In this document: piece after piece, positions 3,182 to 4,217 of the stretch
How positions within the stretch are numbered: the stretch's first letter is position 1
Layout of the letters: every line of letters starts with the position of its first letter
Origin: Cyclobacteriaceae bacterium
Lineage (GTDB): Bacteria > Bacteroidota > Bacteroidia > Cytophagales > Cyclobacteriaceae
Assembly (NCBI GenBank): GCA_015488485.1
Contig: WFNR01000109.1
Span: 1 to 38,616, forward strand
Reading direction: 5' to 3'
Length of the DNA: 38,616 nucleotides
Made by a program: the position numbers and the translations under genes
Notes under the pieces: generated by a model
What the model was told of the DNA's origin: nothing
Seen by the model: only the letters and a program-made list of their open reading frames with translations
Database searches by the model: none

Positions 3182-3619
3182 ATGAGCATTATAAAACACA
3201 GAAGCAGAACAGGACAAATGCCTGTTACAATGGCCGAATTGTTGGAGCGTTTTTTTAACGACAGCATATTTGACAACACGCAGGTATCTACCAACTTTAC
3301 TCCGGGAGTTGACCTGATCGAGTCGGATAAGGCTTACGAGATTCACTTTGCTGTACCCGGTTTTGAAAAGGACAACTTCAATATCGAAGTAAAAGACAAC
3401 GTGTTGACTGTGAGCGGTGAGCGTAAGTTTGAAGAGCAGGATGGCGACAAGACCTTTAAATTGGTGCAAACCAGCTATGGTCGTTTTGAGCGTTCGTTTA
3501 CCCTGCCTGAAAATGTGAACGTGGATAAAATAGAAGCTCACTACAACAACGGCATATTGGAGGTAGTAATACCTAAGACCAAAGCCAAAGAACTGAAAAC
3601 CAGCATTAAGGTTAAGTAA
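3182..3619 (+). CDS. small heat-shock protein, Hsp20/alpha-crystallin family
   Basis: This 145-aa ATP-independent holdase chaperone binds unfolding proteins in the cytoplasm until DnaK/ClpB can refold them. The alpha-crystallin domain spans about residues 40-140. It contains the typical start VDLIESDKAYEIHFAVPGF, the central NFNIEVKDNVLTVSGE strand pair, and the C-terminal AHYNNGILEVVIPK signature. The I-x-I/V tail motif is degenerate (TSIKVK). I chose the ATG at 3182 because the upstream GTG-initiated extension is not family-like and runs into the divergent promoter region. The gene stands alone; a long hairpin-rich 3' region follows and could be part of its transcript. Confidence 0.93.
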   Translation: MSIIKHRSRTGQMPVTMAELLERFFNDSIFDNTQVSTNFTPGVDLIESDKAYEIHFAVPGFEKDNFNIEVKDNVLTVSGERKFEEQDGDKTFKLVQTSYGRFERSFTLPENVNVDKIEAHYNNGILEVVIPKTKAKELKTSIKVK

Positions 3620-3662
3620 GAACCAGGCAGTTGGGAGTCCGTGGACAGCGGTTTCCAGATTA

Positions 3663-3847
3663 GGTTAACCGGGAATTGTCATTAGATAAACTAATGACAA
3701 TTGACGAATTGAAAATCAACGAGTTATACGACTAATTAAATTACCCAAAAATGATTTTCAATTGTCACGGTTAACCCTGACAAGTTATTGTTTATCAATA
3801 ACTTCGTCAGCCCGAAGGGCAAAATTGTCAATTCTATTGACAATTTT
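3663..3847. other. hairpin-rich structured intergenic element
   Basis: This 185-bp AT-rich stretch is packed with perfect inverted repeats. A 9-bp outer stem pairs 3663-3671 with 3768-3776 (ggttaaccg). It encloses a 12-bp hairpin at 3674-3702 and a 10-bp stem pairing 3709-3718 with 3752-3761. Downstream come a hairpin at 3777-3810 (9+5 bp around a one-base bulge), a tiny GCCC-gaa-GGGC hairpin at 3810-3820, and a 12-bp hairpin with a 3-nt loop at 3821-3847. The motif AATTGTC or its complement recurs at least five times. It resembles a folded RNA or a miniature inverted-repeat element. No open reading frame is supported here. The rest of the gap (3887-4217) shows nothing comparable. Confidence 0.6.
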
Positions 3848-3863
3848 GGGGTTAAGCAAAAGG

Positions 3864-3886
3864 GGTAGGCACAGCCTGCCTTTTTT
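3864..3886 (+). terminator. rho-independent terminator
   Basis: The stem GGTAGGC/GCCTGCC (7 bp with one T-G pair) has a 3-nt loop and is followed by six T. It lies 245 bp after the hsp20 stop and directly after the hairpin-rich element, so it probably ends a transcript that includes that element. Confidence 0.7.
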
Positions 3887-4217
3887 GTTTTAGCCCGGTT
3901 TAATCATGCAAGATTCATGTGAAGAGACTGTGTAATCTTGTTAACATCAGATTATCAACTATTTATAATAGGGCTGAACCCGAAAATGCCAAAATTTACA
4001 ACCTTATTTTTGAGTATGGTTTTATCGATTGTCTTTTCATGAGAGTATGAAAAATCACCAAATACATGAATTTTCCGGCTTATAGCCGCTGATACCGGCC
4101 ATCAACCGCTACCGGTAATCTTTGTGAAAATTCTTTACCGGGGTGCAACAGCGCTGGGGGAATATCGTAGTAAAAGCAGGATTCGTTTTTAATTAAATCA
4201 TCTAAATCTTCATAATC

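Follow-up and report, generated by a model that had tools for sequence, protein, structure and literature searches.

What is the tightly folded, non-coding stretch that lies behind an hsp20 gene in this Cyclobacteriaceae genome? The window, by which the whole stretch of 38,616 nucleotides analysed here is meant, carries hsp20 at 3182-3619 on the plus strand (145 amino acids counted from the ATG; Pfam HSP20 PF00011, E 7.3e-26), and the next gene encodes a protease with Trypsin_2/PDZ matches in Pfam. The original prediction described at least five inverted repeats within 3663-3886 and proposed either a structured small RNA or 3′ UTR element of hsp20 or a miniature inverted-repeat element, with no family that fits. 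As judged by sequence comparison, the 182 bp at 3669-3850 are very probably a non-autonomous miniature inverted-repeat element (MITE) that would be mobilised in trans by a DDE transposase of the IS1380 family.

All of the predicted inverted repeats can be found, and the region folds well beyond chance. As RNA, the plus strand of 3650-3900 reaches -102.4 kcal/mol against -51.3 +/- 4.4 for shuffled sequences (z -11.6; 0/200 as good), and the minus strand scores z -9.8, with none of 200 shuffles equal; for 3669-3850, the element by itself, the z-scores are -8.2 as RNA and, as single-stranded DNA, -9.7 (plus) and -10.5 (minus). The 12-bp hairpin with arms 3674-3685/3691-3702 is present, as are those expected at 3777-3810 and 3821-3847, whose arms lie at 3782-3790/3796-3804 and 3820-3832/3836-3848, and a stem given as 10 bp (3709-3718/3752-3761) exists but extends to 12 bp (3707-3718/3752-3763). 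The 9-bp stem 3663-3671/3768-3776, thought to close a three-way junction, is likewise there; however, because six of the nine bases of its left arm (GGTTAA, 3663-3668) belong to host target DNA, the junction is largely a by-product of a TTAA-type target, and the closing stem does not form in the fold of the element alone. Searches of the window and of nine of the 40 related loci described below gave no Rfam match on the element at gathering score, and three weak matches that appeared in the window at E up to 5 were all well under their gathering scores. The expectation that no family fits was thus correct for Rfam, but the ends and the target duplications place the element with IS1380.

The genome G001, of the same genus, shares the hsp20-protease neighbourhood and, as the one relative on which this comparison rests, has an empty site between the hsp20 stop codon and the terminator, where TTAGGTTAA continues directly into the terminator. 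After the stop codon G001 reads ...GCGTTAGGTTAA-AAAAGGGTGGGC...CCACCCTTTTTT, and the window at that place reads ...GATTAGGTTAA-(element)-GTTAA-GCAAAAGGGGTAGGC...GCCTGCCTTTTTT. The insertion is either younger than the split from G001 or was cleanly lost there. The intrinsic terminator after hsp20 (3860-3886, plus strand, start approximate), which had been taken to end the element, does exist but lies outside it, since the GTTAA duplication fixes the right end at 3850. Whether by young insertion or clean loss, G001 has a terminator at the corresponding place without the element, albeit with a different stem sequence, and the terminator is for that reason assigned to the host. The 182-bp element was most likely inserted between the hsp20 stop codon and the hsp20 terminator, and given this position the hsp20 mRNA presumably includes it as 182 nt of tightly folded 3′ UTR, where it may possibly have an effect on the message. 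Further downstream, a slightly changed copy of window 3900-4075, which precedes the next gene (around ATCAGATTATCAACTATTTATAATAGGGCTGAACCCGAAAATGCCAAAATTT), is found in contig C82 (L023); this stretch is either another repeat or a common promoter region.

The limits of the complete MITE are given by sister copies, the empty site in G001 and the flanking target-site duplication GTTAA (3664-3668 on the left, 3851-3855 on the right). It starts with CCG and ends with TTTTGGG, and no open reading frame (ORF) of at least 80 amino acids overlaps it. The left terminal inverted repeat (TIR), CCGGGAATTGTCATTAG, occupies 3669-3685 on the plus strand, and the right one, read inward on the minus strand at 3834-3850, is CCCAAAATTGTCAATAG; the two are imperfect copies, alike at 13/17 positions by eye. 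Each terminal hairpin consists of a TIR and then its own inverted copy. In H1 (3674-3702, plus strand) most of the left TIR pairs in this way over a 12-bp stem (AATTGTCATTAG...CTAATGACAATT), and in H5 (3820-3848, plus strand) the right TIR does so over 13 bp (AAAATTGTCAAT...ATTGACAATTTT). This accounts for the word AATTGTC, rightly noticed as being reused across the stems, which belongs to the parent transposon's TIR. Between the terminal hairpins, and also on the plus strand, are H2 (3703-3766), which consists of GAC, a bulged G at 3706, a 12-bp stem, a 33-nt loop and GTC; the central ACGG-TTAA-CCC junction (3767-3777), which is the symmetry centre; H3 (3778-3809), with TGAC, a 9-bp stem, a bulged C at 3805 and GTCA; and the mini-hairpin CCC-GAA-GGG (3811-3819). 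H3 is H2 on the opposite strand, and the element is mirrored around TTAA.

When searched with 3640-3900, the own genome (3.17 Mb, 182 contigs) yields 12 core copies (C109, which is the window, C28 twice, C85, C150, C146, C11, C56, C64, C99, C12 and C145) and one that is truncated at a contig end (C50). Identity is 87-96% for the 11 other cores, the copy in C12 is a left half only, and the 11 complete copies are 181-353 bp long; extra hairpin cassettes are present between H2 and H3 or between H3 and H5 in C150, C146, C11, C56, C64, C99, C145 and the cut copy C50. In a 5-bp frame the flanks of the 11 complete copies agree at 49/55 positions against a mean of 39.2 when left and right flanks are permuted among copies, and 0/20,000 permutations reach 49; the duplication is perfect in six of the 11 and imperfect in five, and no significance is reached in these copies with frames of 3, 4 or 6 bp. 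A DNA search of 58 related genomes at 1e-5 gave no match, so that the element was seen in the own genome only among 59, and blastn against phage and plasmid records gave none either. The motif TTCGTCAGNCCGAAGG occurs in four other genomes of 240, in open frames of 197-363 aa, as measured in the sequence retrieved, that are without the element's hairpins, and was dismissed as chance. The H3 motif matches the own genome 15 times, and 13 of these are H3s of the element family or of a sequence-diverged sibling in C72 (L021, about 1190-1270), which follows the same plan with other stems and has flanks TTCAA/TTCAA. A 39-bp near-perfect palindrome in C37 (L022 1252-1290; flanks TTTAT/CTTAT) consists of two IS1380-type ends back to back and is possibly the smallest member of the element family.

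Around 42 copies from the own and other genomes the neighbouring genes are divergent in 13 cases, tandem in 19 and convergent in 10, as counted by a crude ORF caller where both neighbours were called, with common insertions entered twice and the Malonomonas locus (L124) included. The copies thus have no preferred gene orientation, which favours reading them as a mobile parasite. Together with the empty site, the missing orientation bias removes a structured small RNA or hsp20 3′ UTR as the origin of the stretch and leaves the miniature inverted-repeat element standing.

The parentage of the element is indicated by contig ends of the same assembly. Those of C34, C177, C145 and C15 start with CCCAGAATTGTCATTAG or a near match, preceded by a flank like TTTAA, TTTAT or TTGAT, and C103 opens on the final 42 codons of a coding sequence, followed 20-odd bases on by the insertion sequence (IS) end CTAATGACAATTCCGGG. 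The left TIR is identical to the end at C103 at 16/17 positions and to those at C34, C177 and C145 at 15/17; the values for the right TIR are 14/17 and 15/17. Relatives of the 42-aa transposase end are found in 24/240 family genomes, own included (E up to 0.1, at which the weakest may be chance), and the full relatives L072, L073, L080 and L082 (440-445 aa) reach 250-261 bits with the model NF033539, 'IS1380 family transposase', whose cut-off is 180. The IS in L072 has the ends CCCAGAATTGTCAATAG...CTAATGACAATTTTGGG, to either of which the right TIR is 16/17 identical. Its flanks (TTTAA/TTTAT) and those of the L073 IS (TTTAA/TTAAA) are imperfect duplications by eye; the duplications are TTAAT/TTAAT in L080, TTTAA/TTTAA in L082 and TTCAA/TTCAA in L081, whose transposase was outside the NF033539 scan. 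About 150 bp of the L072 IS, from its left end as far as the start codon, can be aligned with the C145 contig end, and these contig ends are therefore the own genome's IS ends, split by assembly. For the matching subgroup the 182 contigs yielded ends at contig breaks alone and no intact transposase, and similarity between the IS interior and the element was not seen past the ends. The accessible part of one source describes IS1380 elements as having CC..GG termini and 4-bp duplications and as distant relatives of piggyBac (PMC10045372), and the members ISPsp9 and IS1247 are listed with 5-bp duplications in the portions available of two others (PMC4133298, PMC3281130). The element is placed with IS1380 because its CC...GG ends and target duplications match those of IS1380 elements.

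Several other IS1380-like sequences were encountered. The IS1380 transposase gene in contig C165 (L035 1564-2844) belongs to a different subgroup, with 47% identity to the L072 transposase, and contains one in-frame TGA; the left end there, CCGGGATTATGCATTAG, agrees with the MITE left end at 13/17 positions and with the right end at 9/17. The ORF fragment beside the C15 end (L034 1-348) has no significant Pfam or NCBIfam match and was rejected as the transposon's own gene, as its relatives L040-L042 are other proteins, with ORFs of 273-339 aa that carry a CxxC pair. C15 seems to be a truncated IS1380-type end joined to part of another gene. In contig C187 of G001 (L083 830-872) the palindrome TAACCCGAACTATTCATGATTTTTATGAATAGTTCGGGTTA precedes an IS1380 end and is perhaps another minimal element.

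The proposed parent would be an IS1380 element with CCCRGAATTGTCATTAG-like ends, and the own genome's IS1380 transposase would bind AATTGTC-type ends, excise the element and insert it into TTNAA-like targets. From its symmetry, the element may be an inverted dimer of a unit made up of CC, TIR hairpin, bulged hairpin and GG, the two units meeting at a common TTAA. A second unit could have been inserted into the TTAA beside the first, after which the outer ends would have served to move the pair as one. Stems remain nearly perfect and hairpins are gained, and the loops of the own copies occur in both directions (AAAAT and ATTTT, ACAAT and ATTGT in H1; GTAAA and TTTAC in H3), which suggests cruciform processing or template switching at inverted repeats. 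Either process would give inverted loops along with perfect stems.

The distribution of the element plan reaches far beyond this genome. The pattern TTAACCCTGACAAN{8,38}TTCGTCAG, whose 21 bases are common to the window element and the C72 sibling and for which two to three chance matches are expected by estimate, was found in GTDB genomes in 40 stretches from 15 genome records, 14 of them titled Bacteroidota. Carriers include Cytophagales, Bacteroidales, Chitinophagaceae, Cyclobacteriaceae, Flammeovirgaceae, Draconibacterium, Paludibacter, Roseivirga and others, several with multiple copies; there are fewer independent lineages than records, as insertions are held in common by JADBYQ and JAJTGQ, by JAGQYK and UBA2338, and at one locus by Paludibacter and JAUZOL. 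A viral contig has one pattern match, which scores 22.5 bits with the covariance model. The Malonomonas locus, which contains the search pattern with an H3 stem of only two pairs, was taken as chance and kept in the locus counts.

To the left of the centre the usual plan consists of the duplication, CCC, H1, sometimes CCCnnnGGG, the bulged hairpin GAC-G-stem/stem-GTC (H2) and nnGG TTAA CCC; to the right follow TGAC-stem/stem-C-GTCA (H3), CCCnnnGGG, H5, GGG and the duplication. H2, the inner stem pairs, the mini-hairpin, the terminal hairpins and the target duplications all lie outside the search pattern, and H3's TGACAA/TTCGTCAG, including the bulged C, was set by it. Over the 40 loci H2 is common and not universal: it has one pair only in L102 and L126 and an A bulge in L092, and in 11 loci (L093, L094, L101, L103, L104, L105, L110, L112, L124, L125 and L127) none was called, either because the stretch is cut off, because GTC has changed or because H2 is absent. 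The stem core TGAAAATC/GATTTTCA occurs in H2 of the window (3703-3766), of the UBA2198/Draconibacterium group and of UBA5585 (L098, L118 and L121), and the loops of these H2s are long (26-34 nt) and vary in sequence, in contrast to the short loops of other lineages. Another cassette follows H3 in UBA6161 (L131). L097 and L104 have the element at the same site between near-identical flanks, and the H3 of L104 contains a nested CTGACGG...CCGTCAG hairpin.

Target duplications accompany these distant copies too. In lineages outside the UBA2198/Draconibacterium group 100/110 positions agree against 85.6 when permuted (0/10,000), and 17 of the 22 loci have a perfect 5-bp duplication; here the ends were fixed by motifs composed after the sequences had been viewed, 12/40 loci were dropped, and choosing ends so as to maximise duplications would be biased. 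The UBA2198/Draconibacterium group has perfect 4-bp duplications at four of six loci, and with n=6 the result falls short of significance at 4 bp (p 0.065) as well as at 5 bp (p 0.34).

The stems of the family covary. Alignment A1 consists of 12 rows from 10 genome records (12/40 loci and 10/15 records), excludes own-genome sequence and leaves out JAUZOL, JADBYQ, UBA2338, JAHBUB, Malonomonas and further copies; its rows were picked where the GAC start of H2 could be located, two come from one genome and three from a similar UBA2198/Draconibacterium pair. In this alignment 97.2% of 247 cells pair, compared with 83.0% when the letters of the 3′ side are shuffled, 35 cells are double changes against 11.8, and the covariation score is 0.303 against 0.080, values that 0/500 shuffles reach in each case. 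Further pair types number 18 against 13.8, and 9/500 shuffles are as high. Sliding the partners by one to three columns lowers pairing to 29-49%. The extrahelical G of H2 (column 4) is present in 12/12 rows, as is the C of H3 (column 103), and unlike the latter the G was not set by the search pattern. Among 17 entries for the inner pairs of H3, own arms match at 4.24/5 and swapped arms at 2.33/5. Covariance model R1, built without own-genome rows, matches the window with 64.7 bits (E 2.5e-17), a score that is partly circular through the 21-base pattern; the model matches many copies on both strands because the element is mirrored around TTAA.

Such conservation raises the possibility that selection keeps the bulged hairpins as a functional structured RNA or single-stranded DNA whose shape is read by a protein, be it the transposase, a host factor or an RNase; this would be compatible with a MITE, and we regard it as rather unlikely. 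The excess of pairing and double changes in A1, the bulged G of H2 in every row and the preference of H3 for its own arms speak for this. G-U pairs, however, are few for an RNA (3/240 paired cells), and the own-copy stems, as caught on the plus strand by patterns that missed H2 in C11 and C99 and H5 in C146, comprise 457 Watson-Crick, 6 A-C and 0 G-T cells. An A-C cell on one strand is a G-T cell on the other. The pair types lean towards upkeep of the stems at the DNA level, and some of the six A-C cells share descent. Both strands fold well as DNA, gene orientation is unbiased, template switching could likewise yield perfect stems, and the A1 rows were selected and include several close relatives, with H2 not universal. 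It is accordingly a tentative suggestion, which we would sooner doubt than accept, that the mirrored bulged hairpins, the TIR hairpins and the mini-hairpin act together as a conserved unit of function in a mobile element found across Bacteroidota, and that the transposase or a host factor recognises their shape, single extrahelical base included, on single-stranded DNA or RNA. If true, letters could be replaced wholesale, including those of the TIR to fit another resident IS1380 element, with the shape and the bulge retained.

Very improbable is a repeat of the REP/BIME type moved by a tyrosine (RAYT) transposase, with inner hairpins like CGTC-tagged REPs. H3 does end in CGTC and its stem opens with A-T pairs as in CGTC REPs, whose occurrence in Bacteroidetes is reported in the accessible part of the paper describing them (PMC3733652), but GTC is paired with GAC in 12/12 H3 rows, where these bases are fixed by the pattern, and in the window. 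The hairpin has an extrahelical base, no CCA-type tail was seen by eye opposite the tag in the window and related loci, the stem base being TGAC, and TIRs and target duplications are present. The reading as an hsp20 small RNA or 3′ UTR element, to which the position between stop codon and terminator and the strong fold lend some colour, is hardly credible, given that the same site is empty in G001, that about a dozen copies are scattered among varied gene orientations, that there are target duplications and that Rfam gives no match at gathering score; as an origin it is ruled out by the first two of these points. Integron attC sites and IS200/IS605 hairpins were dropped in view of the TIRs and target duplications.

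A MITE mobilised in trans is the preferred reading, and its structure carries some wider implications. DDE transposons are thought to require little beyond duplex ends. The bulged-hairpin shape is kept in several Bacteroidota orders, with covarying stems and lineage-specific ends, and the question arises why a parasite would keep a single-strand shape. There is also a warning for RNA finders, in that covarying multi-copy hairpins resembling a non-coding RNA family can be transposons. Finally, MITEs may grow by a route that can be put to the test, to judge from the unit mirrored around TTAA and from the added cassettes.

The open full-text literature, as far as its accessible parts go and with subscription papers and ISfinder outside the scope, yielded no IS1380-derived MITE and no such element from Bacteroidota, and the string TTAACCCTGAC led to no paper on the element, judged by title. 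In the portions of the sources available, MITECca01 of Cardinium derives from IS982, MITEPye1 is linked to IS1182 and BrickBuilt of Porphyromonas gingivalis has IS5-like ends, so that the two published Bacteroidota MITEs have other parents (IS982; IS5-like ends).

Among known systems, piggyBac likewise has CC..GG ends and a TTAA target, but it is eukaryotic and is compared here via IS1380 only. CGTC-tagged REPs, as far as the available text describes them (PMC3733652), are likewise short hairpins with CGTC at one side and A-T first pairs, often as dimers, whereas in the present element CGTC is not an unpaired tag and the hairpins are embedded between TIRs and a target duplication. Pneumococcal BOX elements, in the accessible part of their description (PMC3049150), are also modular and strongly folded, with outer modules and a variable inner number, yet they belong to another phylum, and the element has several different cassettes instead of tandem copies of one. 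Bacterial MITEs in general, in the sources as partly available, are short, non-coding and mostly intergenic, with IS-like TIRs and in some cases a predicted secondary structure; the differences here are the IS1380 parent, an architecture common to several orders and stems that covary. With IS1380 insertion sequences (NF033539) the element has in common the CC...GG ends, TIRs that agree at 14-16/17 positions and an AT-rich 4-5 bp duplication of the TTNAA type, but it is without a transposase gene and its interior consists of hairpins. The element is a MITE, but an unusual variant.
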